A DNA stretch of 64,000 nucleotides from Negativicutes bacterium. GTDB taxonomy: Bacteria; Bacillota; JAAYKD01. A program made the translations under genes and the position numbers. Shown here in pieces: positions 10,356 to 41,581 of this stretch. A model generated the notes under the pieces. That model worked only from the letters and a program-made list of their open reading frames with translations, ran no database searches and had not been told where the DNA came from. The stretch spans positions 1-64,000 of the forward strand of contig JAJFTT010000023.1 in the NCBI GenBank assembly GCA_021372785.1, given 5' to 3'. Positions within the stretch are counted from its first letter, which is position 1. The number at the start of each line of letters is the position of its first letter.

Positions 10356-11573
10356 GTGCAGAAAAAGAGTTCTTTGCGCAAGGTGTTATTCTATGTCACA
10401 GCCGTTCTGTTCAATCTGGCAGCCAGTTTTGCTCATCCGGTAACGCCAACGATTTTTACGAATTTGCATTTGGGCAGTTATATGTTCGGCGTGGCTTTGG
10501 GCTCCATGATGATTGTCAATTTTATGTTTTCTCCCTTCTGGGGCAAAATCATCACTTATATTTCCAGCCGGAAATGTCTTTTGCTCAATTGCGCCGGTTA
10601 TGCGCTCGGGCAGGTCTTTTTTGGCCTGGCGCGGACCGAGAGCGGTTTTATTGCCGCCCGCATGTTTACCGGCTTGTTCGTCAGCGGTTCGTTTGTGGGT
10701 TTGCTGACTTATGTGGTCAATACCGCCAAGGATGAGCGGCAGCGCGGCCGCGATCTGACGGTGATCGCCACCATTCAGTCGGTCGGCGGCGCCTTTGGGT
10801 ATATGATCGGCGGACTCTTGGGTGAAATTTCCACTTATTATGCCATCTGGGCGCAGGCTGCCTTGCTGTTCAGCTGCGGTATCTTCTTCTACTTGGTCTG
10901 CGAAGACGATACGCAGGTGTCATTCCGCAGCCTGAAGCTATCAAAACTTGTCAAAGAGGTCAATCCTTTTTCTGCATTCCTGGCCAGCCGCCAGTTTATG
11001 ACCCTCACCTTTGCGCTGTTGTTTGGCATCTGCGCTCTGCAGAATCTGGGCGGCACCGCTTTTGACCAGTCGTTCAATTATTACATTAAGGATCAGTTCC
11101 AGTTTACTTCCGGCTACAACGGCGTCCTTAAGGGGATCATGGGTCTGATTACGCTGATCGCCAATGCCACTATCGGTCTCTGGATGATCAACCGCACCGA
11201 TGTCCGGCGTTCCATTATCGGCGTGCTGGCGGTTTGTACCGTCACCATGCTGGGCATTGTACTGACCGGCAGTGTGCTGCCGTTTATTCTGATCAACATC
11301 GTATTCTATGCCTGCAGCGCGGTCAGCATTCCGGTGCTGCAGTCGATGGTAGCCAAGAAAGCGCACGGCGGCGAAAGCAATCTGATCATGGGCTTTTATA
11401 ATTCCATGAAATCGCTGGGCGGCATCATCGGCGCCTTTGCTTCCGGCGCGCTGTATACCTTTGCGCCCAAAGCACCTTTTGTGCTGTGTCTGGCAGTCTT
11501 TGCTCTGGCTGCGGTCTGCGCTGTTATCTATCAGCGGCGCAGCCAAAAAGAAGAGGAGACGACGGCTGCTTAA
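10356..11573 (+). CDS. MFS transporter
   Basis: The 405-residue protein has about 12 hydrophobic segments in two halves joined by a charged loop near residue 185-205 (EDDTQVSFRSLKLSKLV). GTG 10356 is preferred because GGGAGGTGAG lies 6-15 bases upstream; an in-frame TTG at 10323 has no such site. It fits the drug:proton antiporter-like branch of the major facilitator superfamily. The substrate cannot be told from sequence. It follows the DUF362 gene by 58 bases and may be co-transcribed with it and the broken M20 gene. Confidence 0.85.
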   Translation: MQKKSSLRKVLFYVTAVLFNLAASFAHPVTPTIFTNLHLGSYMFGVALGSMMIVNFMFSPFWGKIITYISSRKCLLLNCAGYALGQVFFGLARTESGFIAARMFTGLFVSGSFVGLLTYVVNTAKDERQRGRDLTVIATIQSVGGAFGYMIGGLLGEISTYYAIWAQAALLFSCGIFFYLVCEDDTQVSFRSLKLSKLVKEVNPFSAFLASRQFMTLTFALLFGICALQNLGGTAFDQSFNYYIKDQFQFTSGYNGVLKGIMGLITLIANATIGLWMINRTDVRRSIIGVLAVCTVTMLGIVLTGSVLPFILINIVFYACSAVSIPVLQSMVAKKAHGGESNLIMGFYNSMKSLGGIIGAFASGALYTFAPKAPFVLCLAVFALAAVCAVIYQRRSQKEEETTAA

Positions 11574-11896
11574 GGGCAAGTTGATTGAGGTCGGGAAGCC
11601 GTTTTCCCGGCAGGTTTTCTCTCAACAGCGGGGCTCGGCAGCGGGACGGCGGCAATCCGGTCCCGCTGTTTGTTCCGTTGCGCCGGGTGAGCGCAGATTC
11701 GAAAAACCGGACTGCATCAGAAGCATTTAGCAAAGACATAAAGACCTGGAGAAAGAAAACTTCAGATCCGGATAGGAAGCATCCGATTGCTATCAATCGG
11801 TGTATGTGCTATATTGATCAATAGATCGCTGAACAGACCCGCCTGGCGCAGTGAGGGTTGGTTGGTGGATTTCACAGCAAAGGAGATAGGTTTGCC
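11574..11896 (+). other. 323-bp gap: MFS terminator and leader of the GGDEF-EAL gene
   Basis: AGCGGGAC (11640-11647) pairs with GTCCCGCT (11660-11667), followed by GTTTGTTC, a probable terminator for the MFS unit. Downstream, a weak promoter may lie in the AT-rich stretch near 11780-11825. I looked for the conserved core of a cyclic-di-GMP riboswitch and did not find it. Confidence 0.4.
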
Positions 11897-14233
11897 TTGC
11901 CTGCAAAAACGCGCTCACTCCTGGTTATCGTCAGCCTTTATTTCAGCCTTTACGCGCTCTCCATCTGGGCGGAACAGCAGCTGCTCACCGCGCTTTTGGC
12001 TCCCATCGGCGGCTTGCTTTGCTTTGTGATCCTGCTCGGCGCTTTTTTTCGCTCGCCAAAACAAGGAAGGATACGTTACGCCTGGCTGCTGCTGAGTTTT
12101 GCCGGTCTCTGCTGGCTGCTGGGCGATCTGCTTTGGCTGCTGGATGAACAGGTATTGCAGCAGAATGCGGCCGGCAATACTTTTATCGCCCTGCTCTACC
12201 TGGGGACCAATGTGTTTCTCTTGGCTGCTTTAGCGGTTTACGGCATGGACAATTTTGGTAAATGGAGCAAGATCCAGCTGATTTTGGATGCCGCCATCGT
12301 GACAATTACCACCTTGCTCTTAACCTGGCATATTTTTTTCAAAGAAAGTTACGAATTGTTTGACCAATTCGGCGGCAGCGGCCTGGTCACGATTCTGACC
12401 ATTTTTCTTGACTTCGTTTTAAGCATAGGGGCTGCCGTCTGGTTTGTCTCTTACCGGGACAACAAACCGGCCTTACCAATCCGGATCACGGCATTTGGTG
12501 TTATGCTGTATCTGATTACGGATATCTGCTGGATCTATCTGGATCTGAACCGGCTCTATATGCCGGATGGCCTGGTAGATGCTGCGTATATGGCTGCTTT
12601 GTTGATCATCGCCTTCAGCGCGGCGGTTCATCTGCAGGATCCGGAAGAATTGCAGTACGGCGAAGCGTATTCCGCCAAACGTAACTTTTGGAGTAAAATC
12701 GTTTATATTTGCATTGCCCCTCTGATGACGCTGTTTTTCCGCGGTTTTGATCTGTTTGTCCTGATCAATTTTCTTTTGCTCGGCCTGTTTTATATCAGCG
12801 CTTCCGCTTATATTCAAGTCTCGATTAAAAATGAAAAGATTTTGCGTGATCAGAATCGGGAGTTGGCGCTGCGCATCCGAGAGCGTACGCAGGAATTGGA
12901 GGAAAAGAACCGGCAGCTGGATTACTTGTCCAATCATGATACGGTGACAAATCTCTTCAACCGGCGCTATTTCTTGAGAACCCTGGAAGAAATACTGCAA
13001 AGTATCGCGCCAAATGAGACGCTGGCCTTGCTGTTTATCGATCTGGACCGCTTTAAAACCATCAACGATACCTATGGCCATTCCATCGGCGACCGGGTCC
13101 TGGTGGAATTGTCCAAACGCCTGCAGGCTCTGATCGGCGAGAAGCAAACGCTGGCGCGTTTTGGCGGCGACGAGTTTATTCTGGCGGTGCATTCCGGTTC
13201 TGCTTACGCAGAAATCGAGTCGATTGCCGGGAAGATCATCAGGGAATGCAGCCGGGCGATCCGGATTGATCAATATACTTTTTATCTGACCGTCAGCATC
13301 GGCATTTCTATTTTCCCTCTGGATGCCAAGAACGTCGATACGCTGCTGAAGAATGCCGATATGGCCATGTATCAGGCAAAAAAACAAGGCTGCAACGAAT
13401 ATGTTACCTTCAGCCGGCAATTGCAGGATCTTGTGCAGCGCAAAAATGAAATTGAAATGCTGCTCAAGCATGCCGATTATGAGCACGAAATGACGCTTTA
13501 TTTCCAACCGCAATTTACTCTGAGGGAAAAGAAGTTAATCGGCATGGAAGCTCTGCTGCGCTGGAACAGTCCGCAAAAAGGCTGCCTCGAACCGGCGGAG
13601 TTTATTCCCATTGCGGAAGAGACGAACGACATCATCCCGCTCGGCGGTTGGGTATTGAAAAAAGCGATGCAGCGCATCGCGGTTTGGAATGAGACCTTTG
13701 CTCTGGATTTGAAAATGTCGGTCAATGTCTCTCCCAAACAACTGAATCAAATTGATTTTATCGAGCGGCTGCAGGCATTGCTGACCGATTGTGCCATCCG
13801 GCCCGCCTGGCTGGATCTGGAGATCACAGAAAATGTTGCCTGGGAGGGAAGGTTCCCTTTCAGTAAAACAGCCGGTCAGCTCAAACAGCTGGGAGTCAAT
13901 ATTTCAATTGATGATTTTGGCACCGGTTATTCTTCTCTCAGTTCGCTCAAGTTGTTTCCCATTGATAAAATCAAGATCGCCAAGCCGCTGATCGATGCTG
14001 TCAGCCGGGAGAATCTCGGCCAGAGCATCGCGAAATATACAATTCAGCTGGCTAACGCAATGGGAATCAAAACGATTGCCGAAGGGGTGGAGACGAAAGA
14101 ACAAATGGAGTTGCTGCTGGAACTGGGCTGCGAGCAGGTACAGGGCTATTATCTGGGTAAGCCGCTGCCAGCGGAGCAATTTGAGCAAGCTTTTTTAATA
14201 GCCGGTCTCCGGCAAAACAACACGGATCCCTGA
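11897..14233 (+). CDS. Membrane GGDEF-EAL protein (cyclic-di-GMP turnover)
   Basis: The protein has 778 residues from TTG 11897 (AAAGGAGAT 9 bases upstream); TTG 11858 is an alternative. Residues 1 to about 300 hold eight or nine membrane helices, then a coiled coil (RERTQELEEKNRQLDYLSNH). The GGDEF domain follows, with an intact RFGGDEF near 420 and no upstream inhibitory RxxD site. The EAL domain (about 530-770) has EALLRW, SVNVS, EITEN, DDFGTGYSS and AEGVE, but the usual K-I-D triad reads K-I-A at residue 695. That aspartate helps bind metal in active phosphodiesterases. The protein may therefore be mainly a diguanylate cyclase, with the EAL part weakened or regulatory. Confidence 0.85.
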   Translation: MPAKTRSLLVIVSLYFSLYALSIWAEQQLLTALLAPIGGLLCFVILLGAFFRSPKQGRIRYAWLLLSFAGLCWLLGDLLWLLDEQVLQQNAAGNTFIALLYLGTNVFLLAALAVYGMDNFGKWSKIQLILDAAIVTITTLLLTWHIFFKESYELFDQFGGSGLVTILTIFLDFVLSIGAAVWFVSYRDNKPALPIRITAFGVMLYLITDICWIYLDLNRLYMPDGLVDAAYMAALLIIAFSAAVHLQDPEELQYGEAYSAKRNFWSKIVYICIAPLMTLFFRGFDLFVLINFLLLGLFYISASAYIQVSIKNEKILRDQNRELALRIRERTQELEEKNRQLDYLSNHDTVTNLFNRRYFLRTLEEILQSIAPNETLALLFIDLDRFKTINDTYGHSIGDRVLVELSKRLQALIGEKQTLARFGGDEFILAVHSGSAYAEIESIAGKIIRECSRAIRIDQYTFYLTVSIGISIFPLDAKNVDTLLKNADMAMYQAKKQGCNEYVTFSRQLQDLVQRKNEIEMLLKHADYEHEMTLYFQPQFTLREKKLIGMEALLRWNSPQKGCLEPAEFIPIAEETNDIIPLGGWVLKKAMQRIAVWNETFALDLKMSVNVSPKQLNQIDFIERLQALLTDCAIRPAWLDLEITENVAWEGRFPFSKTAGQLKQLGVNISIDDFGTGYSSLSSLKLFPIDKIKIAKPLIDAVSRENLGQSIAKYTIQLANAMGIKTIAEGVETKEQMELLLELGCEQVQGYYLGKPLPAEQFEQAFLIAGLRQNNTDP

Positions 14234-25035: not shown

Positions 25036-25200
25036 TCTGATGACTATAGTATAGCATGAATCAATAGGGCTGGTAAATGAAAATAGTGCGGTTTTGCAAA
25101 TTCAGCTGAATTCAGATATTTTCTGCAACTCTCTTGCGCAGGGGAAAAGTGCATGTTATGCTATCAGCATGAAGAAATGCGCGGAGAGGGCGTTGATGAA

Positions 25201-26592
25201 ATGCGGAATCCTGTAAAAATCAGCCCGGAAAATAAAAAACTGTTTTCCCTGTTTTGGCCGATTCTGATTGAACAAGCCCTCACCATTCTGGTGGGTATGG
25301 TTTCCACCATTTTGGTTTCCAATGTTGGTGATTATGCCGTAGCCGGCGTGAATTTGGTCGATACAATCAATCAACTCATCATTATTTTGTTTAATTCTTT
25401 GGCGGTCGGCGCGTCTGTGATGACAGCGCAGCATATCGGAGCCGGCCGCAATCAGCAGGCCGGTCAAACGGCTGCGCAGTCGATTGTCCTGGTCGTGGGA
25501 GCCTCGGTTTTATTGGGCGTCGCCGCCTTTTGTTTTGCGGAACCGCTGCTCCATCTGCTTTACGGTTCGGCAGCGGGTAATGTTTTGCAAGTGGGTGTCA
25601 TTTACTTGCGCTTTTCCGCCGTCAGTTACATTTTTCTGGCCCTGTTCAGCGTTTCGGCCGGAGTTACGCGCGCTTCCGGCAATTCGCGTAAGCCGATGAT
25701 GGCTGCGCTGCTGTCCAACCTGGTCAATATCAGCATTGCGGTTGTTTTGATTTATATTTTCCATCTGGAAGTTTATGCGGTATCGATTGCCGTACTGGCT
25801 GCCCGCATGGTGAGCGGTTTATTTATGTATTTCTCCGTCAAAAAAGAAAAACACGGACCCTTGCTGCTGCCGGCTTTACGACTCAAGCTTGATTTTAACT
25901 TACTGCGCCCGGTGTTGAATATTGGCGTTCCCTCCGGCGTGGATAATTTGATTTTTCAGGGAGCCAAGGTTTTGATTTCGGTTTTCATTGCCGGCATGGG
26001 TACCGCCGCGCTGCAGGCCAACGCGATCTGCAATTCAGCGGGCGGCTATCTTTGGCTGACCGGCAATGCGATGCAGGTGGCTGCGGTCACCATGGTAGGA
26101 CAAGCATACGGCGCTAGATTATATCATACCGCTAAGCTTTGGATGCGCAGATTGAACCTCTATACAGCGGCAATCCAATTGCTGCTGCTGCCGCCTTATC
26201 TTCTGATTCTGAAAGGGCTCATCTCTTTTTACGGGGCATCTGCCGAAAGTGCGGCGCTGGCTTATCGGATTCTGATGATTTGCGCCATTGTGCAGCCGTT
26301 TATTTATGCCTGGGCCTTTGTTTTACCGCAATGTCTGCGTGCGACCGGGGATGCCCGCTATACGATGGTGGTTTCGATCATCAGCTTATTCGGTATGCGG
26401 CTGCTGGTGGGTTGGTTCCTGGGGATTTATCTGGGTTGGGGTGTGTTTGGGATTTGGATGGGTATGCTGGCCGACTGGCTGGGACGCGCCATCGGCTTCA
26501 CCTGGCGCTTTGAGAAGAATAAATGGCATGGCGGCAGACTGCCGCTTGACGAAGGACTTCCGCAAGGACAACCGGACAGCCTGCCGCGCTAG
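25201..26592 (+). CDS. MATE family efflux transporter, tandem copy 1
   Basis: The 463-residue protein has 12 predicted membrane segments. ATG 25201 is preferred over the in-frame ATG 25153 because GGAGAGGG lies ten bases upstream and the tandem paralogues align from here. The opening FWPILIEQALTILVGMVSTI and the block NVGDYAVAGVNLVDTINQL are shared with the two next genes. C-terminally it ends with GRAIGFTWRFEKNKWHGGRL, again conserved. Substrate unknown; drug or metabolite export is the family role. Confidence 0.9.
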   Translation: MRNPVKISPENKKLFSLFWPILIEQALTILVGMVSTILVSNVGDYAVAGVNLVDTINQLIIILFNSLAVGASVMTAQHIGAGRNQQAGQTAAQSIVLVVGASVLLGVAAFCFAEPLLHLLYGSAAGNVLQVGVIYLRFSAVSYIFLALFSVSAGVTRASGNSRKPMMAALLSNLVNISIAVVLIYIFHLEVYAVSIAVLAARMVSGLFMYFSVKKEKHGPLLLPALRLKLDFNLLRPVLNIGVPSGVDNLIFQGAKVLISVFIAGMGTAALQANAICNSAGGYLWLTGNAMQVAAVTMVGQAYGARLYHTAKLWMRRLNLYTAAIQLLLLPPYLLILKGLISFYGASAESAALAYRILMICAIVQPFIYAWAFVLPQCLRATGDARYTMVVSIISLFGMRLLVGWFLGIYLGWGVFGIWMGMLADWLGRAIGFTWRFEKNKWHGGRLPLDEGLPQGQPDSLPR

Positions 26593-26769
26593 ATTTTATC
26601 GGCCGCAAAGAAGGAACGGGAGCTGTTGTCAGAGAGGCCCTTTCTAGCGGATTTGCTTTCAGGCAGTGTTTTTTAAGCCGCAATCGGCAAAACAGATAGA
26701 AATCAGATAGAATTTGACAGAAAGCGAACAATTTCCCTGAACAAATTGGATTGCAGGAAAGAGGGGAAC

Positions 26770-26859
26770 ATGGTATTCTTAAAGTTATCTTTACGCTCTT
26801 CATTTTTTCCGGCAAAGCAAAGTCTGGCAAAGATTAGTTGCCGATCCCGGCCGGTCTGA
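26770..26859 (+). CDS. Possible 29-residue leader peptide before MATE copy 2
   Basis: ATG 26770 follows a good ribosome-binding site (AAAGAGGGG) and encodes MVFLKLSLRSSFFPAKQSLA and nine more residues, ending at TGA 26857. It ends 29 bases before the MATE start at 26889. A short, well-initiated frame directly before an efflux gene could be a translation-sensing leader. No clear terminator hairpin was found after it, so this remains weak. Confidence 0.3.
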   Translation: MVFLKLSLRSSFFPAKQSLAKISCRSRPV

Positions 26860-26888
26860 AGGGCGGGAGCGGCTACGGAGGCACTGAA

Positions 26889-28262
26889 ATGCAGATAAAG
26901 CAAAAGCTTGCGCCGGAAAACAGAAAATTCCTGCAGCTGTTTTGGCCTGTCTTGATCGAGCAGGGACTCACTATTTTGGTAGGTATTTTTTCTACGATTT
27001 TAGTCTCCAATGTGGGTGATTATGCGGTTGCCGGTGTGAACCTCGTAGATTCCATCAATAATATGATCATTATTTTTTTCAATGCCCTGGCATCCGGCGC
27101 TACGGTTGTGGTGGCGCAGCGCATCGGCGCCCGGCGCAATCAGGAAGCCGGCGAAACGGCGGCACAGGCTATCGTATTGGTGGTTGGCATCGCTGCGGTC
27201 GTGGGGCTGGCGGCCGGCTGCTTCGCCGGACCGATTTTACAGGGCTTGTATGGCAAATCGGCTGCCAATGTGCTGCAAATGGGTCGGATTTATTTGTATT
27301 TTTCCGGCGCCAGCTATCTGTTTCTCGGTTTGTCCAGTGTTTGCGCCGGTGTGACGCGGGCAGCCGGCAATTCAAAAACACCGATGATCGCCGCTTTGCT
27401 GGCGAATCTCATCAACATCTCTGTGGCAGTCATTCTGATTTATGGCTTCCATATGGGCATCTATGCGGTAGCCGTTGCCATGTTGGCTGCCCGAATCAGC
27501 GCGGCGGCGTTTATGTTGTGGGCGGTTCGGAGCAGAACAGAAGGATCTTTGGTTTTACCCAAGATTCGTCTGAAGTTGGATATGGCTTTGATCCGGCCGA
27601 TCCTGGATATCGGCATCCCTTCCGGCCTGGATTCTTTGATTTTTCAGGGAGCCAAAGTAGTCGTGGCGGTTTTGCTTTCCGGGATGGGTACGGCGGCGAT
27701 GCAGACCAATGCCATTGTCGGCTCGTTATCCAACTTTTTCTCTTTACCCGGCAACGCCTTTTCCATTGTTGGCGTGACGGTAGTCGGTCAGTCTTATGGC
27801 GCCGGTCTGTATCGGCAGACGAAAAAACTGATGGCGAAGCTGTGCCTCTATTCTTCCGCGGTGATGACCGCGCTGATTCCGCCTTTTTTACTCCTGTTGG
27901 ATCGCATGATCGCTTCCTATGGCCCTTCTCTGGAGAGCGCCGCTCAGGCAAAGCTGATTCTGACGATTTGTCTGCTTGTGAATCCACTGCTCTATCCCAC
28001 CGCTTTTGTGCTGCCGCAGTCGCTGCGGGCTGTTGGGGATGCGAAGAAGACAATGGTCATTTCGATCGTCAGCTTATTCGGTCTGCGGTTGTTTGGTTCC
28101 TGGTTTTTGGGTGTCAGACTGGGCTACGGTGTGCTCGGTCTCTGGCTTTCCATGTTTGCCGATTGGGGCGGCCGGACAATCGGCTTTGTCTATCGCTGGA
28201 AGCGCAACCGATGGCATCATGGCGAAGAACCGCTGGACGAAGGGGCTTTGCCTCCTTTTTAA
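26889..28262 (+). CDS. MATE family efflux transporter, tandem copy 2
   Basis: This 457-residue 12-segment transporter is closely related to its neighbours on both sides over the whole length (FWPVLIEQGLTILVGIFSTI; NVGDYAVAGVNLVDSINNM; IPSGLDSLIFQGAKVV). ATG 26889 has GGAGG eight bases upstream. The gene follows copy 1 by 296 bases and precedes copy 3 by 208, so each copy may have its own promoter. It probably arose by tandem duplication. Confidence 0.9.
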   Translation: MQIKQKLAPENRKFLQLFWPVLIEQGLTILVGIFSTILVSNVGDYAVAGVNLVDSINNMIIIFFNALASGATVVVAQRIGARRNQEAGETAAQAIVLVVGIAAVVGLAAGCFAGPILQGLYGKSAANVLQMGRIYLYFSGASYLFLGLSSVCAGVTRAAGNSKTPMIAALLANLINISVAVILIYGFHMGIYAVAVAMLAARISAAAFMLWAVRSRTEGSLVLPKIRLKLDMALIRPILDIGIPSGLDSLIFQGAKVVVAVLLSGMGTAAMQTNAIVGSLSNFFSLPGNAFSIVGVTVVGQSYGAGLYRQTKKLMAKLCLYSSAVMTALIPPFLLLLDRMIASYGPSLESAAQAKLILTICLLVNPLLYPTAFVLPQSLRAVGDAKKTMVISIVSLFGLRLFGSWFLGVRLGYGVLGLWLSMFADWGGRTIGFVYRWKRNRWHHGEEPLDEGALPPF

Positions 28263-28470
28263 GCGCTGCCAAGCTTCGCGAGGACCGGTTTTTTTCTGCG
28301 GGCGGCTTTTCTCTTAGGCCTGCGGCATCTTGCGGAAAAAGACGGTTCATCTTATGCTGACCGAAAAGATGCAAGTTTCCCTCGAATCCAGTTCATCTTT
28401 GCAGTTGCCGACAAGTTATTCATACGAAGGTATTTTTGTCAGCAAGCGATCATCCGGGAGGGGCCGTGGC

Positions 28471-29889
28471 ATGCGAAAGCAGAGAATTTTAGGAACCGAG
28501 AATAAACGATTTTTACAGTTGTTTTGGCCGATCCTGATCGAACAGGGTTTAACTATTTTGGTCGGTGTCATTTCCACCCTATTGGTTTCCAACGTCGGCG
28601 ATTATGCGGTTGCCGGCGTCAACTTGGTCGACACCATCAATAACATGATCATTATTTTTTTCAACGCTTTGGCTTCCGGTGCGACGGTTGTGGTTGCGCA
28701 GCATATCGGAGCCCGCCGGAATAAGGAAGCGGGAGAGACGGCAGCGCAGGCGATCGTCCTGGTCGTGGGCATAGCTGTGCTGGTAGGCGCTTTGACAACT
28801 TGCTTTGCCGGTCAAATCCTGCGCGGCCTTTATGGCCAATCGGCTGCCAATGTCTTGACAACCGGTGAAATCTATATGCGCTTTTCCGGTGTCAGCTATG
28901 CTTTCTTAGGGGTTTTCAGTGTTTGTGCCGGGGTGACCAGAGCCGCCGGCAATTCGAAAACGCCGATGATGGGAGCTTTGGTTTCCAATCTGATTAATGT
29001 GACGGTGGCAGCTGTCTTAATTTATGTCTTCCGTTTGGGTGTTTATGCCGTTGCGATTGCCATGCTGGCGGCACGGATCGGCGCGGCGGCCTTTATGTTT
29101 TCGATGGTGCGGCGCAAAACGGCCGACACGAGCTTGCAGCTGCCGAAGCTGCGCTTGAAACTGGATCGGGAGCTGCTGCGTCCGATCTTAAAAATCGGTA
29201 TTCCTTCCGGCGTGGATTCTTTGATTTTTCAGGGAGCCAAGGTATTGCTGGCTGTCTTTATGTCCGGCATGGGTACCGCGGCGCTGCAGGCCAATGCCAT
29301 CGTTACTTCTCTCAGCAGCTTTATCAATTTGCCGGGTAACGCCTTTTCCATTGTCAGTGTGACGGTGGTTGGTCAGTCTTACGGAGCGAAACTCTATCGT
29401 CAGGCAAAATCCCTGATGCGCAGGATGTGTCTTTATACGTCGGTAATGCAGGCTGCCATCGGTCTGCCGATGCTCTTATTTCTGGAACCGATGATCGCCG
29501 GCTATGGCCCTTCCGCTGAAAGCGCCGCGACAGCAAAACTCATACTCACCATCAGCGTGCTGATTCATCCCTTCCTCTATGCGACAGCGTTTGTGCTGCC
29601 GCAGTCGCTGCGCGCGGTAGGCGATGCCCGCCAGCCGATGATCATTTCGATTATCAGTCTGCTGACCTTGCGAATTTTTGGTTCCTGGCTGTTGGGCGTC
29701 AGGCTGGGTTACGGAGTCTTAGGGATCTGGTTATCGATGTTTGCCGATTGGGTTGGGCGTTCGGCCGGCTTCGTTTATCGCATGGAAAGGAATCTGTGGC
29801 ATCAGGGCAGGGAACCTGTCGATGAAGGAGAACTCGATACCCTGACCGGTAAACGCCTGACGGAAAATGGAATCATACCCCCAGATTAA
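28471..29889 (+). CDS. MATE family efflux transporter, tandem copy 3
   Basis: The 472-residue protein is the third tandem paralogue, nearest in sequence to copy 2 (NVGDYAVAGVNLVDTINNM; RAVGDARQPMIISIISLLTL). It differs mainly in a longer C-terminal tail after WHQGREPVDEGE. ATG 28471 follows GGGAGGGG; the frame is open further upstream to 28330, but that part does not match the paralogues. A large hairpin at 29919-29974 lies just downstream and may end the array. Confidence 0.9.
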   Translation: MRKQRILGTENKRFLQLFWPILIEQGLTILVGVISTLLVSNVGDYAVAGVNLVDTINNMIIIFFNALASGATVVVAQHIGARRNKEAGETAAQAIVLVVGIAVLVGALTTCFAGQILRGLYGQSAANVLTTGEIYMRFSGVSYAFLGVFSVCAGVTRAAGNSKTPMMGALVSNLINVTVAAVLIYVFRLGVYAVAIAMLAARIGAAAFMFSMVRRKTADTSLQLPKLRLKLDRELLRPILKIGIPSGVDSLIFQGAKVLLAVFMSGMGTAALQANAIVTSLSSFINLPGNAFSIVSVTVVGQSYGAKLYRQAKSLMRRMCLYTSVMQAAIGLPMLLFLEPMIAGYGPSAESAATAKLILTISVLIHPFLYATAFVLPQSLRAVGDARQPMIISIISLLTLRIFGSWLLGVRLGYGVLGIWLSMFADWVGRSAGFVYRMERNLWHQGREPVDEGELDTLTGKRLTENGIIPPD

Positions 29890-30144: not shown

Positions 30145-31596
30145 TTATTGCTTCCTCATTGTTAAGTTATCTCTTGAAGTTCTGAGAATTTTAATACTTT
30201 CCTCTTCGGATAATATAAGATCGGTTCCCTCCAGCCAGAGCAGATAATCTTGGAAGGCGGCTGTTAAATTTGCCTCAGTAATATAGGACGCTCTCATTTC
30301 CTCATCGGGCAAATTATAGGCGGCAATGTTTAAGCCATCTCTGCCAAAGCTGGTTATCGAAATAGATTCAGAGATATCCGACATTGACGGAGTTAATAAT
30401 CTGGCACATATAGTACGCTTTTCAGCTTCTTCAATAAAATGGTTCAACAGGTATAAACGATCCTCTATCGAATAAGGAAGATCGTATTTGGGGATTGTAT
30501 TGACGACCACACCTGTTTGACAGAATTTGTTTAAACCATCCAGGGTAAAGTAGGTATGGAACTTTTCACGCCGGTTACGTATGAGATTGAATCGGACGGC
30601 AACATTTTCAACGACCTGGTCGCGATTGATCATGTCTTCCCGTATCCTTCGGCGGACAAAGGCTTCATCCATGACACAGGAAAAATTCGGGCTGTGTTCA
30701 TAAAAGCAAATTGAACCGTTGCTGCTTTGTAAAATATCGATGAAGTATTGGACGATGGAAATTGCGTTATCTTTCCGAGTGCTCAAGGGTAATGTGTTTT
30801 TTTGGATGCGGAAAAATTCATCGGTGTAATATTCTATTATTTTGGAGTTTTTGGTCAATAAAGCGGATTTAAAATCGTAGTTTAACTGTAAAAGGTACTC
30901 GGAAGTAATGATGAAAAAAGGCAAGGTTTGCATTTCATCTTCTTTGTGTTCTTTTGTTTCATAGAAGTAGTAAGGCTGATAATGTAAGTTATCCAGAAAA
31001 CAATAGGGTAAAATGCTTTTTAATAATTCGAGGTTTTCGTTTTGATTGATAAGACTGTTTTCGGAGTCGAAGCCAACTATGTGAAGCCAATCTACTTTTT
31101 CAGGCCCGTCGGCACAAGTGGTTGCTATGACCGGAATATCAATTAGTTCACAGGGGGGGACTTTCATTAATATTTTTGGATTCGAATGCGTGTATGCTTC
31201 TCTCTCAACCATTTCCTTAATGGCTAAACGAATCGATTGGGTTCCCCGCAAAATTTGCAATCTATCCTCGGAATGATGGAAAGAGAAGCTGACGGTGTTA
31301 TGGCTTAAACTTAATTGCATTAAGTCCGAAATAATTGCTTTTACTTTTTTGCGCCTTTCATAGATGTCCGGCCCATCGCAGCAAATTTGGTGTTTTTCCA
31401 GAAGCAGTTTTTTTTCTATAGGAGTAACGGGTAAATAACGCAAAAGCTTTTCTAAGAATGCTCTATTTGGGATGCGACTTCCTGAAGCAACTTTATGAAT
31501 GGTTGAACGGTCAACATCCGCCTGAAGAGCCAGGTTATAAATATTAATTTTCTTTGAAGTCAGGATTGCTTTAAAGTAATCGCTAAACTCAGACAT
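30145..31596 (-). CDS. Large XRE-type regulator (N-terminal helix-turn-helix, unknown C-terminal domain)
   Basis: ATG 31596 has AAGGAGGG upstream; the open frame extends further but without a better site. Residues 1 to about 65 form an XRE-like helix-turn-helix (LALQADVDRSTIHKVASGSR). The remaining 415 residues form one or two unknown domains with many isolated aromatic residues and no membrane segment. The gene is divergent from the four-gene membrane cluster starting at 31860. It is AT-richer than most of the window. A ligand-sensing repressor or activator of that cluster is the natural guess. Confidence 0.7.
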   Translation of the reverse strand: MSEFSDYFKAILTSKKINIYNLALQADVDRSTIHKVASGSRIPNRAFLEKLLRYLPVTPIEKKLLLEKHQICCDGPDIYERRKKVKAIISDLMQLSLSHNTVSFSFHHSEDRLQILRGTQSIRLAIKEMVEREAYTHSNPKILMKVPPCELIDIPVIATTCADGPEKVDWLHIVGFDSENSLINQNENLELLKSILPYCFLDNLHYQPYYFYETKEHKEDEMQTLPFFIITSEYLLQLNYDFKSALLTKNSKIIEYYTDEFFRIQKNTLPLSTRKDNAISIVQYFIDILQSSNGSICFYEHSPNFSCVMDEAFVRRRIREDMINRDQVVENVAVRFNLIRNRREKFHTYFTLDGLNKFCQTGVVVNTIPKYDLPYSIEDRLYLLNHFIEEAEKRTICARLLTPSMSDISESISITSFGRDGLNIAAYNLPDEEMRASYITEANLTAAFQDYLLWLEGTDLILSEEESIKILRTSRDNLTMRKQ

Positions 31597-31859
31597 GAGT
31601 CGCCCTCCTTGATTGATGTGGCAGCAAGAATTGTTTACACAAAAAACTATAGCATTAGTTTGCCACAAAAGCAAGAACATATTGATATTAATTATAATAG
31701 CAGTAAGATTCAATCAGGCTTTGTAACAATTCTATCTAACGGTGCCGATTTTGAAAGGGGGGTAATTTGAGCAGTGCCAATGAGCAAAACTTCCATCGTT
31801 CTAAATCAAATCCCAATGTTATTGACAATTCTAGATCAAATCAGATTGGAGGGATTCTA
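31597..31859. promoter_or_regulatory. Divergent control region of the regulator and membrane cluster
   Basis: This 263-bp AT-rich interval holds outward signals for both units. TATAAT at 31693-31698 is a -10 for the rightward operon. The AAGGAGGG site of the regulator lies at the left end. A second ribosome-binding site (AAAGGGGGG before TTG 31767) would extend the first membrane protein by 31 polar residues; GTG 31860 with GGAGGG (31848-31853) is preferred because the membrane segment then follows at once. Confidence 0.5.
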
Positions 31860-32645
31860 GTGACTTTTTCCTTTTCAGCTCAAGGAATCAATACCCTTTT
31901 TATTGTACTATTAATTGGATATTTGGGCGTCTTTTTTTACAATAAAGCGCGAAAAGGCGAATTACCAAAAATGAGGAGAATTGTTGGGCTCGACGTAATT
32001 GCAGAAGCCACAGGACGCGCCACAGAATTAGGCCGCCCCGTCCATTTTTCTCCGGGAATCGGAGGTATCACCAACGATGTTGCTCCTCAAACTATGGCTG
32101 CTCTGGCGTTGATGAGTTATGTGGCGAATTTAACGGCGAAATATGATACGGGTTTAGTCGTAACAATCCGTCAAGGTGTTGTTTTCCCACTTGCTGAAGA
32201 AACGGTACGTGTGAGTTATGTGAATGCCGGTAAGGCGGATGCATATAATCAAAATATGGTTCGATTCATATCCGATCAACAATTTGCTTATGCTGCCGGC
32301 GTCATGGGTATATTTGCCCGGGAAAAGATAGCGGCCAATATTATGATGGGTGCTTTCTGGGCAGAGTCACTGCTGCTTGCGGAAGCCGGCTCGCAAGTCG
32401 GGGCAATTCAGGTTGCCGGAACGGCTAACATGACAGAAATCCCCAATTTTGTTGTTGGCTGCGATTACACACTCATCGGAGAAGAATTATATGCCGGAGG
32501 AGCTTACTTATCTCAGGATCCAAATCGTTTGGGAAGTATCAGAGCCCAGGATATTATCAAATTGGCTGTGGTCATTTTGATTCCCATTGGTGTAATTTTG
32601 GCGACAGCTAATATAACCTTCCTTAAAACATTATTAACTTATTAA
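31860..32645 (+). CDS. Membrane protein with central soluble domain, DUF6754-like
   Basis: The 261-residue protein has one membrane helix at about 10-28 and another at about 235-255. Between them is a soluble domain that starts MRRIVGLDVIAEATGRATEL and contains GRPVHFSPGIGGITNDVAPQ, EETVRVSYVNAG and AYAAGVMGIFAREK. It resembles proteins annotated as DUF6754; this is recognition by pattern, not by search. No catalytic motif is evident. It opens a compact operon of four membrane proteins with gaps of 26, 12 and 18 bases. The tight spacing implies a joint complex. Confidence 0.7.
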   Translation: MTFSFSAQGINTLFIVLLIGYLGVFFYNKARKGELPKMRRIVGLDVIAEATGRATELGRPVHFSPGIGGITNDVAPQTMAALALMSYVANLTAKYDTGLVVTIRQGVVFPLAEETVRVSYVNAGKADAYNQNMVRFISDQQFAYAAGVMGIFAREKIAANIMMGAFWAESLLLAEAGSQVGAIQVAGTANMTEIPNFVVGCDYTLIGEELYAGGAYLSQDPNRLGSIRAQDIIKLAVVILIPIGVILATANITFLKTLLTY

Positions 32646-32671
32646 GCTTAAGTCGGGAATGGAGGGATACT

Positions 32672-33316
32672 GTGAAACGTCAAGTGCCTTTACTCATAAC
32701 TTTGTTGGTGGGTGTGATCGTATTCTTATCCGGCGTGATGACCTTGAAGATTGGTTTCTTTGATTTAAAAACCGTTTCATCAACCATGACCGGTTGGGGG
32801 ACGCTTGTTTCCGCCTTTGCGGCATTTATCGCGGCAATGAGTTTGGTTTTAGTTCATGTGAAAAGAATTCAGGCCGTGAAAAAGAATCCTATGGCAGTAA
32901 TCAATAGTTTGGCTTTGCTCATCAGCATGGGTCTGATGGCAGTATTGGGAATTGCCGGGCAGCTCACTCAAGGAAGACCTCTGCCCTTATTTGTTTTGAT
33001 TTTCAATAACGTGATTAATCCAGCCGGCGCCGCTATTTTTGCAATGTTGGGCTTCTTTATCACGTCGGCTTCCTATCGGGCATTTCGCGCAAGAAGTTTG
33101 GAAGCTACAATATTATTGGTGTCTGCGCTTTTGATCATGTTAGGGCGCATTCCTGTTGGCGAACAATTATGGTCCCAATTCCCGGCACTGGCCGATTGGT
33201 TATCAAACGTACCCAATGCAGCGGCTCAACGCGGAATCTTGATTGGGGCCGCCGTCGGAGCAATTGCAACCAGCGTTCGAACCATTCTTGGTTTCGAACG
33301 TGGTCACTTAAATTAG
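32672..33316 (+). CDS. Polytopic membrane protein, unknown function (cluster gene 2)
   Basis: GTG 32672 follows GGAGGG. The 214-residue product has about six membrane segments, joined by short loops with a positive cluster HVKRIQAVKKNP near residue 67 and a loop ending in VPNAAAQRGILIGAAVGAIA. No known transporter motif is present. It always seems to need its neighbours, judging by the tight operon, and could be a channel or scaffold subunit. Confidence 0.7.
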   Translation: MKRQVPLLITLLVGVIVFLSGVMTLKIGFFDLKTVSSTMTGWGTLVSAFAAFIAAMSLVLVHVKRIQAVKKNPMAVINSLALLISMGLMAVLGIAGQLTQGRPLPLFVLIFNNVINPAGAAIFAMLGFFITSASYRAFRARSLEATILLVSALLIMLGRIPVGEQLWSQFPALADWLSNVPNAAAQRGILIGAAVGAIATSVRTILGFERGHLN

Positions 33317-33328
33317 GAGGGTGAGCGG

Positions 33329-34135
33329 ATGGAAAAACTGTTAAAAATTGACAAGAAAATCATCTATAGCTTGTTAATATTTTTCTTGATCTTACCCATG
33401 TTCCTGCCGCTGAATATTCCTCTTTCTATCAGTTCGAACACAAAGGCCGTTTATGACTATATCGAGGCTTTACCTGCCGGAAGTAAAGTTTTGCTGGCAC
33501 TCGATTTGGCGGTAACGAGTCGTGCCGAACTTTCCGGACAAATTTTCGCTATTGCCGAACACTGTGTTATGAAGAACCATAAAATATATATGGTCGCTCT
33601 TTGGGATGCAGGGCCGATGTTTGGCGAACAAGTCGTAGATGCCTTCCCACAACTAACCTATGGTGAAGATATTGTAAATCTGGGGTACACAGCCGGTGGT
33701 GAAACCGGCGTTGCCTTTATCGCCTCAAACATCCTCAATGCTTATCCTGTGGATTATCGCGGCAATCAAACTAAGGACCTTCCGATGATGAAAGAGATTG
33801 GCGATATCAATACGATGGATTTTATCTATTGCTTTGGCGCCGGATCCCCAGGACCGCGGGAATGGATACGTCAGGTTGTGACCAATTATCAAACACCCTT
33901 TGCTGCCGGGGTCTTAACGACCAGCGCTGCCGAATATGCTCCTTATGTGCAAGCGGGACAAATGGTCGGTGTATTGGGTGGATTACGTGGCGGCGCCGAG
34001 TATGAACTTCTTATCGGAAAGCCGGGTGCTTCTTTAGCCAAAATGGATTCGGAATCTATTGGTCATCTGTACATCATCGCATTGATTGTGATTGGCAACA
34101 TTGGATATTTTGCCACTAAAAAAAATAAAAAGTAA
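33329..34135 (+). CDS. Membrane-anchored protein with extracytoplasmic domain (cluster gene 3)
   Basis: The 268-residue protein has a membrane helix at about 11-30 and another at about 243-262, with a 210-residue soluble domain between them. The domain has a Rossmann-like alternation (GSKVLLALDLAVTSRAELSG, HKIYMVALWDAG, FIYCFGAGSPGP, GVLGGLRGGAEYELL). It may lie outside the membrane, since both ends are anchored, with a short cytoplasmic KKNKK tail. The topology mirrors cluster gene 1. AGGAGGGTGAG precedes ATG 33329. Confidence 0.7.
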   Translation: MEKLLKIDKKIIYSLLIFFLILPMFLPLNIPLSISSNTKAVYDYIEALPAGSKVLLALDLAVTSRAELSGQIFAIAEHCVMKNHKIYMVALWDAGPMFGEQVVDAFPQLTYGEDIVNLGYTAGGETGVAFIASNILNAYPVDYRGNQTKDLPMMKEIGDINTMDFIYCFGAGSPGPREWIRQVVTNYQTPFAAGVLTTSAAEYAPYVQAGQMVGVLGGLRGGAEYELLIGKPGASLAKMDSESIGHLYIIALIVIGNIGYFATKKNKK

Positions 34136-34153
34136 CTAATGGGGGTGATATAA

Positions 34154-34780
34154 ATGGCAGTATTTTGGTCTTGGGTTGCAGGTCTGATTACGCTGGCAAT
34201 TCTTTCTTTTGTGTTTAAGGAAAATCCGGTGTATCGTCTGGTTGAGCATCTTTATGTCGGAGCCAGTGCCGGCTATTCAATATCTGTGAACTTTGGTTAT
34301 ATTAGAAATTTAGGCTTTTCTAAACTTGGCAACGGGGTTTATATTACGATTATCCCGATCGCCCTGGGATTACTTCTCTTTACGCGCTATTCAAAAAAAT
34401 TGAACTATTTATCCAGATGGACGACAGCTTTTTTGGTAGCACTTGGTTCAGGGTTAGCTCTTTATGGTATTGCAAAATCACAATTAATCACACAAGTATC
34501 GGCAACCTTTTTACCAGTTGTTGTTATGAAGGACGGATCATTTAATTTCCTGAGTTCCATGAACAACTGGATAATGATCTTAGGGGTGCTCAGTGTGTTA
34601 ATTTACTTCTTCTTTACGACCAATATACGCAATCCGGTTTTTTCGACTGCCAGTAAATTTGGCCGCTATCTCATGATGGTCTCCTTTGGTGTGGCCTTCG
34701 GTAATTCTATTATGATGAATATATCTTTACTGTTAGGAACATTCGATACCGTCCTGAAGGATATGCTGCATATCTTCTAG
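34154..34780 (+). CDS. Polytopic membrane protein, unknown function (cluster gene 4)
   Basis: The 208-residue protein has about six membrane segments, starting WSWVAGLITLAILSFVFKEN and containing an early loop PVYRLVEHLYVGASAGYSIS. GGGGGTGAT lies upstream of ATG 34154. It ends the four-gene cluster. Two polytopic and two doubly anchored subunits suggest a membrane complex. What it does cannot be read from sequence. Confidence 0.7.
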   Translation: MAVFWSWVAGLITLAILSFVFKENPVYRLVEHLYVGASAGYSISVNFGYIRNLGFSKLGNGVYITIIPIALGLLLFTRYSKKLNYLSRWTTAFLVALGSGLALYGIAKSQLITQVSATFLPVVVMKDGSFNFLSSMNNWIMILGVLSVLIYFFFTTNIRNPVFSTASKFGRYLMMVSFGVAFGNSIMMNISLLLGTFDTVLKDMLHIF

Positions 34781-35206
34781 ACAGTCAGGTCCAAAAAATT
34801 GTGTTTTTTGCCCGGCACAAATGCAGAGCACCGGCGCAGCGTTTATGCCGCGAAAGGTGGTTTCTCTTGCGAAGGGATACGTCCGGTCAAGCGGCCGGGC
34901 GGATCCTTTCGCTGCCGGCTCAGGCATCAGGCGCTCTATGACCGTTCCGGCGCCGAGCAGAGCAGCCGCTTCCTGTCCTTCGCGAATGTTCTCTTTTCGC
35001 TGAGCTTGCGCTGCTTTCGTTGTATGGTCCGGCAGATTTCCGGAGATACGAGTTGGGCAATGCCGCGGGGAAATTGAGCCATGAAATTCAGCTTCTCCGG
35101 TTTCTGTATTTGACATTACAATTACCTGATAACCGGGCTTGAGTTTTTAATTTTTCCAATTTACACCATGATACGGACTCTATCCAAAGTGAGAAGGGAA
35201 TTAATT
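34781..35206. other. 426-bp GC-rich gap between membrane cluster and amidase
   Basis: The interval 34790-35110 is clearly more GC-rich than the AT-rich genes on both sides and holds a 127-codon open frame on the minus strand (35116 to 34733) that overlaps the end of cluster gene 4. That frame matches nothing I recognise and may be open only because of base composition. The last 90 bases are AT-rich and hold the promoter and the GAGAAGGGA ribosome-binding site of the amidase. Confidence 0.35.
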
Positions 35207-36667
35207 ATGGAAATATTAAAATTAACACTGAAGGAATTACGCAGCGCACTGGATGAAGGAAAAATTACTACATCAGAGCTGGTTCATTTTTACTTGGACC
35301 GGGTTGCCAAATTGAATCATGAGGGTGCCAATATCAACGCTATTTTGGAATTAAATCCTGAGCTTGAACTTTTGGCTCAGGCAAAGGATCACGAAAGAAA
35401 AATTGGCAAAGCAAAAGGTGCCTTGCACGGGATTCCGGTTTTAGTTAAAGATAACATTGATACTTTCGATATGATGCACACCTCGGCAGGTTCACTGGCA
35501 CTGAAGAATCATTATGCTTCTAAGGATGCTTTCGTTGCGCATAAGTTAAAGGAAGCGGGCGCTATCATATTTGGCAAAGCGAACATGACCGAGTGGGCAA
35601 ATTTTATGACCCGGAATATGCGAAATGGATATAGTTCACGTGGCGGACAGGTTTTGAACCCTTATGGTCCCAATGTTTTCGACGTCAGCGGTTCCAGTGC
35701 AGGTTCAGCGGCAGGAGTCGCTTCTCGAATGGTTCCGGTTGCAGTCGGAACTGAAACAAGCGGATCGGTGCTCAGTCCTGCGAATATGAACAGTTTGGTT
35801 GGCATTAAACCAACCGTCGGTTTGGTTAGTCGTACAGGGATTATTCCGATTATGTTTAGTCAGGATACGGCAGGTCCGTTAGCCATTTGTGTTGAAGACG
35901 CCGCTTATTTGCTGAATTCAATGATTGGCATCGATGAGAATGATTCAGCTACCTTGAGTGCGGAAGGTCATTTTGAGAGTGATTATACGAAATTTATTAA
36001 TCCGACCGGTTTACAGGGTAAACGCTTAGGGTTTGTTACTCAAATGAATGAGCGGCTCACTCCGGAGAAACTGGAAGTCATGGAACGTGTCAGAAAAGAA
36101 ATGAGCGAAAACGGCGCTGAGGTAATTATGATCTCGGATATTCCGGGGCTTCTGGAACTCAATAAGAAGCCGTGGTATGCCAGCAGTACAATGAGCTTTG
36201 AATTTAAACCGGCTTTGAATAAGTATTTGTCAACTGTGGAACCTCATTTACCCGTGCATCATCTGACTGATGTGATCTGTTTTAATCAGCAGAATGCTGA
36301 GCAGTGCTTAAAATATGGACAAATTCATTTTATTGAATCACAGTCCCGAAGCGGTTCTTTGTCGGAGAGCGAATACATCGAAGACCGGAAAGCGGATCTC
36401 AAATACAGTCGGGAAATGGGAATCGATTGGGCTTTGGGGAAATACAAAGTAGATGCGCTTGTTTTCCCGGCTTCCAGTGTAGCTTCTATTGCTGCCAAAG
36501 CGGGCTACCCATCCATAGCAATACCAGCCGGATACTTAGAGGGCGGTGAACCTTTTGGCATCTCAATGACAGCCGGAGCATGGCAGGAAGGTCTGTTAAT
36601 TGAAATTGCCTCGGGATATGAATCTGCAACACATCATCGTAACGATCCCGAGTGTGCGAAGTTTTGA
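35207..36667 (+). CDS. Amidase-signature family amidase
   Basis: The 486-residue protein from ATG 35207 has the full amidase-signature triad: lysine in VLVKDNIDTF (about residue 80), the cis-serine in GSSAGSAAGVAS and the nucleophile serine in GTETSGSVLSPAN. The GTETSGS-LSP form is typical of the peptide-amidase-like Gram-positive and Stenotrophomonas group that removes C-terminal or side-chain amides. There is no signal peptide, so the enzyme is cytoplasmic. It follows the four-gene membrane cluster on the same strand after 426 bases, ending in a strong terminator. Whether it belongs to that cluster is uncertain. Confidence 0.88.
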   Translation: MEILKLTLKELRSALDEGKITTSELVHFYLDRVAKLNHEGANINAILELNPELELLAQAKDHERKIGKAKGALHGIPVLVKDNIDTFDMMHTSAGSLALKNHYASKDAFVAHKLKEAGAIIFGKANMTEWANFMTRNMRNGYSSRGGQVLNPYGPNVFDVSGSSAGSAAGVASRMVPVAVGTETSGSVLSPANMNSLVGIKPTVGLVSRTGIIPIMFSQDTAGPLAICVEDAAYLLNSMIGIDENDSATLSAEGHFESDYTKFINPTGLQGKRLGFVTQMNERLTPEKLEVMERVRKEMSENGAEVIMISDIPGLLELNKKPWYASSTMSFEFKPALNKYLSTVEPHLPVHHLTDVICFNQQNAEQCLKYGQIHFIESQSRSGSLSESEYIEDRKADLKYSREMGIDWALGKYKVDALVFPASSVASIAAKAGYPSIAIPAGYLEGGEPFGISMTAGAWQEGLLIEIASGYESATHHRNDPECAKF

Positions 36668-40140: not shown

Positions 40141-41532
40141 CTACATAATCTCAATCGCGGGTTTTTCTTCGTCTTTAATCACTCCCTGCGTTTTCCAGTG
40201 TCCGGTGCGATAGTAGCCGAAGAGCATAACAAACTGCATGATTATGGAGAAGACCATCGCCCAGAACAAACCATATTGGTTCTGCGGCCGTACGGCAATG
40301 AAATAAGCCACCGGGATCCTTAAGAGATTACCGAGGATGGAAACGGCCATCGGCGCATAGGAGGCGCCGGCGCCGCGCATGGCGCCGCTCAAATTCTGAT
40401 TGAGACCCATGATGAAATAGAAGAAAGCGAGAATACGAATACCCTGCCCGGCAATGCTGAGTACATTTTGATTGTCGGTGAAAATGCGCATCACATTGCC
40501 GCCAAAAAACCAGAGGATAACACCCAGGACAAGACCAAAACCGACAATGATACGAAGAGCGGTATTGATCGCATCATGAGCCCGGTCGAGCCTGCGGGCA
40601 CCCACATTCTGCCCGACAAAGGTACTCAAAGCCATACCGAAAGACATCATAGGGATGACGACAAAACCATCAACCTTCTGCACTATCGCATTGGCGGCGA
40701 TATAGTTGGAACCAAATCCGTTGGCGAATGACTGGATGACAACAGATCCCAAAGACATGGCGACGTTCTGAATGGCGGAGGGGACACCAAGACGCAGGAT
40801 GGTTTTAGCCAGCGGTTTGTCAATCCGCATACTTTTGGGAGAAACATGGACCGGATAAGCGCCGGAATTGATGCGGATATGCACCAAGGCGCCTGAAACA
40901 AAGTGCGAGATGAGGGTAGCGATGGCCACACCGGCCACAGCCCAATGAAAAACAACAACAAAGAGCAGATCCAGAAGAATATTCAGCACGGCGGCAACGC
41001 TGAGAAAGATCAGCGGATAACGGGAATCACCCATGCCGCGTAAGATGCCGCCGCCAACATTGTAGGCGATATTACCCAGCGTGCCGGCAAAAATAATGGC
41101 TAAATAAGTTGTGGAATCGCCTATGATATTGGCTGGCGTTCCCAATAATTCCAACATCGGTCTGGATAAAGCCAAACCGGCGACCGTGATGAGCGCACCG
41201 GCGATATAAATTAAAGTAAAGGCAGTATTGATGGTTTTATTGACGGTTTCCAAACGCTTGGCCCCATAATTTTGAGCAACAACAATACTGGCACCAATGG
41301 AAATACCGAAGAATAAGCTATTGAACAGCATCATCAGCGGAAAGCTGGCGCTGACGGCAGCGACTGCATCAGAGCTGACAAAATTGCCTACCACGATGGT
41401 ATCAACTACATTGTAGAGCTGTGAGATCAGATTGCCGGCAATCATCGGCAGAGAAAAAATCAGCAATTTTTTGGTGATGCTGCCCTCGGTTAAATCGCCG
41501 CGTAAGTGCTTTGCCTGAGTGTTGTCACTCAT
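40141..41532 (-). CDS. MATE family efflux transporter (fifth in the window)
   Basis: The 463-residue protein starts at ATG 41532, with AAGGAG 12 bases upstream; the in-frame ATG 41544 would abut the site and is less likely. The sequence has 12 membrane segments and typical blocks (LPMIAGNLISQLYNVVDTIV, FVGQNVGARRLDRAHDAINT, AMRGAGASYAPMAVSILGNL), nearest to the NorM/DinF-like clostridial group. A consensus promoter lies 50 bases upstream. It is unrelated in detail to the tandem copies at 25-30 kb. Confidence 0.9.
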   Translation of the reverse strand: MSDNTQAKHLRGDLTEGSITKKLLIFSLPMIAGNLISQLYNVVDTIVVGNFVSSDAVAAVSASFPLMMLFNSLFFGISIGASIVVAQNYGAKRLETVNKTINTAFTLIYIAGALITVAGLALSRPMLELLGTPANIIGDSTTYLAIIFAGTLGNIAYNVGGGILRGMGDSRYPLIFLSVAAVLNILLDLLFVVVFHWAVAGVAIATLISHFVSGALVHIRINSGAYPVHVSPKSMRIDKPLAKTILRLGVPSAIQNVAMSLGSVVIQSFANGFGSNYIAANAIVQKVDGFVVIPMMSFGMALSTFVGQNVGARRLDRAHDAINTALRIIVGFGLVLGVILWFFGGNVMRIFTDNQNVLSIAGQGIRILAFFYFIMGLNQNLSGAMRGAGASYAPMAVSILGNLLRIPVAYFIAVRPQNQYGLFWAMVFSIIMQFVMLFGYYRTGHWKTQGVIKDEEKPAIEIM

Positions 41533-41581
41533 AAACTGTAACATCTCCTTGTTATCTTATCAATTGATAGTAAGCTAACTG

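Follow-up and report, generated by a model that had tools for sequence, protein, structure and literature searches.

Among described membrane systems, the closest to the locus analysed here are TRAP and tripartite tricarboxylate (TctABC) transporters, in which the subunits are encoded together, expanded copies lie beside catabolic genes and an outer domain captures the substrate. Another parallel is offered by membrane protein pairs of inverted topology, such as those of the small multidrug resistance (SMR) family and RnfA/RnfE, in which related subunits are inserted into the membrane in opposite directions. In the window (i.e. the whole stretch of 64,000 nucleotides that was analysed) four consecutive genes, which we call A, B, C and D, encode membrane proteins that can be compared with each of these. 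With regard to TRAP and TctABC transporters the cassette is a work-alike only, in that the predicted outer domain of C might capture substrate. B, C and D have no sequence match to a permease or a binding protein in Pfam or NCBIfam, and instead of a separate periplasmic solute-binding protein there is C, which is anchored at both ends and has no significant fold match. Moreover, those systems have one large permease, where the cassette encodes a pair of six-helix subunits together with a predicted inner domain. ABC transporters possess a constant ATP-binding subunit, whereas the cassette contains no ABC ATPase, and ABC_tran was observed near only a few loci. As for SMR and RnfA/RnfE pairs, the probable mirror pair of the cassette consists of two-helix anchored domains (A and C), and no Rnf-Nqr Pfam match was found.

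Judged by these comparisons, the four proteins taken together fit no known kind of system, and for this reason we consider the system new, although a remote link from fuller profile or structure libraries could change that. For three of the four there is no family model; the remaining one belongs to a domain family of unknown function, DUF6754 (PF20539), which was not mentioned in the literature searched (5.39 million papers, without subscription articles and preprints), either by these names or as IPR046642, which we take to be the identifier for DUF6754.

The four-gene cassette and its distribution

The original prediction described four consecutive membrane genes at 31860-34780, two encoding polytopic proteins of about six segments and two encoding proteins in which a soluble domain of some 200 residues has one helix at either end. 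This description holds in every part: the genes all lie on the plus strand and are separated by exactly 26, 12 and 18 bases, B and D being the polytopic proteins and A and C the two-helix ones (Table 1). The start codon of A is GTG, preceded by a ribosome binding site, and a longer ORF is possible from TTG 31767; promoter and terminator scans gave sites no commoner than in shuffled sequences. The suggestion that the first protein recalls DUF6754 proved right, as A matches PF20539 at full length (positions 6-255 of the 257 of the profile) and far above the curated cut-off of 27 bits (299.5 bits, E 2.1e-89); A is a clear member of this family, whereas Pfam holds no model for any of its constant partners. 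B, C and D gave no significant Pfam or NCBIfam match; when single members of the B, C and D families were scanned, they gave scattered weak matches to no consistent family, and a profile search of PDB sequences returned nothing for these three and two chance-level matches for A.

Table 1. Position of the cassette genes and adjoining features in the window
Feature	Position	Strand	Basis
XRE-type regulator (HTH_3), 483 aa, divergent, start ATG 31596; not a conserved part	30145..31596	-	HTH_3 match
Ribosome binding site GGAGGG, 5' of A	31849..31854	+	Sequence
A: DUF6754 protein, 261 aa; alpha/beta domain flanked by two helices; start GTG 31860	31860..32645	+	PF20539 match
B: 214 aa, six membrane helices, without known family	32672..33316	+	Pfam/NCBIfam scans, charges
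C: 268 aa; alpha/beta domain flanked by two helices; probably distantly homologous to A	33329..34135	+	Model, profiles
D: 208 aa, polytopic (about six helices), without known family	34154..34780	+	Pfam/NCBIfam scans, charges
Hydrolase with amidase signature, 499 aa (486 aa if started at ATG 35207); not a fixed part	35168..36667	+	PF01425, NF005300

We searched loci of the window's phylum with an HMM for each of the four families; there, 146 of 161 A genes open an uninterrupted same-strand A-B-C-D cassette with median gaps of 22, 17.5 and 13 bases. The remaining 15 A genes comprise 12 that reach a contig end or the end of the extracted sequence and three that belong to split or degenerate copies (L038, L113 and L223); the one at L113, in Ca. 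Fermentithermobacillus, consists of A and D remnants close to an intact cassette. Gene order and strand are constant in every intact cassette seen, and the sequence distances of A, B, C and D co-vary over the 146 cassettes (pairwise Mantel r 0.73-0.80, compared with a maximum of 0.10 in permutations). Since the same four genes recur in the same order in 146 cassettes, the gene set is more than chance, and A-B-C-D is an inseparable four-gene unit. The earlier view of a self-contained set is thus strongly supported, and the four genes were not found scattered among unrelated neighbours.

Of 399 genomes sampled from the phylum, 31 contain DUF6754, compared with none of 14 control genomes. All four genomes from the order of the window genome contain it, and by class it was detected in 15 of 15 genomes (class of G311), 49 of 154 (class of G233) and 7 of 13 (class of G130). 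The window genome has four A loci, whereas Ca. Fermentithermobacillus carboniphilus (G416, CP062796.1) has 14 A copies and G454 at least 15 (15 of 33 candidates scored). Nine copies are present in G311, where seven consecutive A-B-C-D cassettes form a tandem array (L073 and L074) with a spacing of about 3.3 kb. A single genome of 1.5 Mb carries 15 A copies, and up to 15 gene sets in a genome of this size indicate that the system matters to its hosts. Copies from one genome are mostly dispersed over a midpoint-rooted tree, so much of the paralogy is old. The window cassette clusters with copies from the class of G311 (support 1.0) rather than with those of its sister genus, a position that could reflect horizontal transfer or loss. 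An origin from mobile elements or phages was rejected, as tblastn gave no match in plasmid and phage records and no relative was confirmed in viral contigs. A role in anti-phage defence was also considered and discarded, none of the six proteins having a match among PADLOC models.

Predicted membrane layout and the probable relationship of A and C

Membrane topology was derived from family-averaged charges, with 49 relatives in the case of A. By this measure B is N-in/C-in, with positive inner loops (+2.9 and +3.0); both outer ends of C are positive and the interior of its loop is negative. In A a charge of +4.0 directly follows the first helix, which places its soluble domain inside. The predicted orientation is therefore one in which the domain of A would be cytoplasmic and that of C outside. 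D can tentatively be drawn as six helices, N-out, an orientation that hinges on its weak second helix. In the structural model of C (pLDDT 90) two helices flank an alpha/beta domain that has about five main strands, and a Foldseek comparison with the PDB gave no significant match (best E 4e-3, TM about 0.3). The model of A is of low confidence (pLDDT 64), with a domain that looks alpha/beta. Assignment to a known fold was abandoned, the A model being too weak and the good C model having no significant match.

When profiles were compared, weak collinear matches between A and C were observed at two places. With 49 sequences the match was inseparable from the A-D control, but with 171 and 186 sequences the main match strengthened (from P 0.045 to P 0.0014), whereas P remained at 0.14-0.25 for the controls (A-D, A-B, B-C and C-D) with the added sequences. 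None of 150 locally shuffled decoys reached the A-C score of 30.2 (their mean was 15.6 and their maximum 25.5), nor did the reversed profiles (19) or any of 13 unrelated families (maximum 20.3). The matching stretches include E.GK..Y..D.V as well as AQ[DS]..[KH].....[LF]I..G at helix 2, a motif reading that is post hoc. A and C are probably distant homologues in opposite orientation; the HH-suite probability for the pair being 18%, their homology is probable rather than proven. The phrase "mirrored architecture" used in the original prediction was apt, in that A and C seem, from their charges, to face opposite sides of the membrane and, from their profiles, to share a distant ancestry. If this mirror pair is real, a two-sided complex could arise via duplication and inversion of an anchored domain. 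For B and D a first decoy test was positive as well, but the reversed profile scored as high (23.9 vs. 23.3) and homology between them was rejected.

Hydrolase neighbours and a possible role in transport

Pfam tallies of genes near the cassettes contained M20 peptidases, amidohydrolases, C26 peptidases, creatininases, S9 peptidases, a nitrilase-type hydrolase and TldD/PmbA, few of which are among the commonest families of the control tally. We tested M20, amidohydrolase, C26, amidase, nitrilase and beta-lactamase families, defining as near any gene within two genes of a cassette. Such hydrolases make up 27 of 288 near genes, compared with 13 of the 443 genes that are distant or serve as controls (p 2e-4). 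Since the hydrolase families had been picked from the first loci, only the held-out test is clean, and its p value of 0.018 is modest (11 of 153 near genes vs. 8 of 316, an odds ratio of 3.0). Amide and peptide hydrolases are thus about threefold enriched beside cassettes, with moderate statistical support, and about 91% of near neighbours fall outside the tested families. What survives of the proposed coupling to amide hydrolysis is this looser link, as the amidase of the window is no constant partner; the coupling may be better read as uptake of substrates that are degraded by differing neighbouring hydrolases.

The membrane genes come as inseparable multi-subunit sets, their copies are widely expanded, the catabolic neighbours vary and the hosts are fermenters. 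A transporter family fits this combination best, and our leading reading, held at somewhat under an even chance, is that A, B, C and D assemble into one membrane complex that acts as a solute transporter. The complex and the transport, with its direction, its substrate and its source of energy, are inferred from anatomy and context. In such a transporter a four-subunit complex of about 16 helices would move a solute along a path formed by B and D. The alpha/beta domain of C could capture or gate the substrate on the outer face, and the related domain of A on the inner face could release it or couple the complex to energy. Copies would have been duplicated and then diverged for different substrates, many of which would probably be peptides, N-acyl amino acids or amides, and the hydrolases adjoining several copies would degrade what comes in. 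Against this stand the lack of homology of A, B, C and D to any transporter, the fact that C cannot be recognised as a solute-binding protein, the large majority of neighbours outside the tested hydrolase families and the lack of an ATPase that is constant among the cassettes.

Ca. Fermentithermobacillus, with its 14 copies, is a predicted peptide and amino acid fermenter (PMC10215811). Passages of its genome paper attribute amino acid and peptide uptake to about six ABC transporters only, and the transporters named there are limited to ABC and 2-HCT types (PMC10215811). A bolder and more doubtful version of the transporter reading is that the cassette represents an unknown transporter class, with four proteins and two related alpha/beta domains on opposite faces around two six-helix subunits, which provides a major route of solute uptake in uncultured fermenting Bacillota. 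If this were true, a large share of nutrient uptake in these fermenters would have been overlooked.

Alternative functions and other neighbouring genes

An additional gene, encoding MutL/GlmL (PF13941), lies directly after D and on the same strand in at least 13 of 146 cassettes from several classes, a lower bound since many loci have little flanking sequence. At L094 it is divergent beside the cassette, and L077 is probably also MutL-linked, with a gene position that ORF calling leaves ambiguous. Where the sequence suffices, MutL is usually followed by a barrel-sandwich protein with a weak RnfC_N match, and the full order A-B-C-D-MutL-barrel-sandwich is kept in L075, L076, L078, L079, L080, L083 and L168. 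Some A-B-C-D-MutL loci have a small protein of about 95 aa before them and TsaE/TsaB/RimI-like genes after them. The MutL-linked cassettes do not form a single clade on the midpoint-rooted tree. They suggest an original role that was maybe other than transport. One rival reading is a membrane-bound enzyme or energy-coupling complex, in which A and C would each contribute a catalytic or cofactor domain, one on either face, B and D would serve as scaffold or ion path, and the MutL ATPase and barrel-sandwich protein would be the original partners. The invariant acidic residues of A (E169, D202, E208 and E209) and the alpha/beta appearance of both domains would suit an enzyme. We nevertheless consider this unlikely, since MutL is missing at most cassettes, including that of the window, we noted neither a conserved cysteine nor a cofactor motif in the consensus sequences, and 15 copies in 1.5 Mb would be unusual for a core enzyme.

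The putative domains on both faces and the many copies are also what one would expect if C sensed an outside solute, B and D transmitted the signal and A passed it on inside, and one related group (L085, L088 and L038) does have kinase and response-regulator neighbours. Such a sensory complex is rather improbable, as A has no known output domain, two six-helix proteins exceed the needs of a receptor and the neighbours are highly varied. We give about as little credence to an envelope, spore or structural assembly with no role in uptake: L037 follows spore germination genes and one group lies beside holin-like genes, but such neighbours are rare, and copy expansion and hydrolase enrichment suit catabolism better. 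Least probable by far is that regulator, four proteins and amidase constitute one system coupling membrane action to amide hydrolysis. The divergent XRE-type regulator and the downstream amidase-signature enzyme are indeed present where they had been predicted, and a second amidase of the same family is encoded a few genes upstream of the L109 cassette in the sister genus. However, the amidase gene begins 387 bases past D, adjoins the cassette of the window only and is absent at nearly all others, while a search of 21 related genomes for the regulator recovered only itself and one weak match elsewhere (21% identity). With no close relative in related genomes that have cassettes, the regulator is no member of the cassette, and it may control the window copy.

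A few other neighbours were recorded. C26 glutamine-amidotransferase-like peptidases precede the cassette at L007 (3671-6375) and, as tandem repeats, at L109 (5370-7643). In L007 a protein of 445 aa that has an unknown domain and a weak match to a winged helix is encoded between them, and just 3' of the cassette (10474-12073) there is a transposase-like pair which, by eye, we presume to resemble IS200/IS605 TnpA and TnpB. In the window, three consecutive related MATE-type efflux-like genes (25153-29889) lie upstream of the cassette, and a fourth MATE-type gene downstream (40141-41544) clusters with them by sequence (cluster c7).
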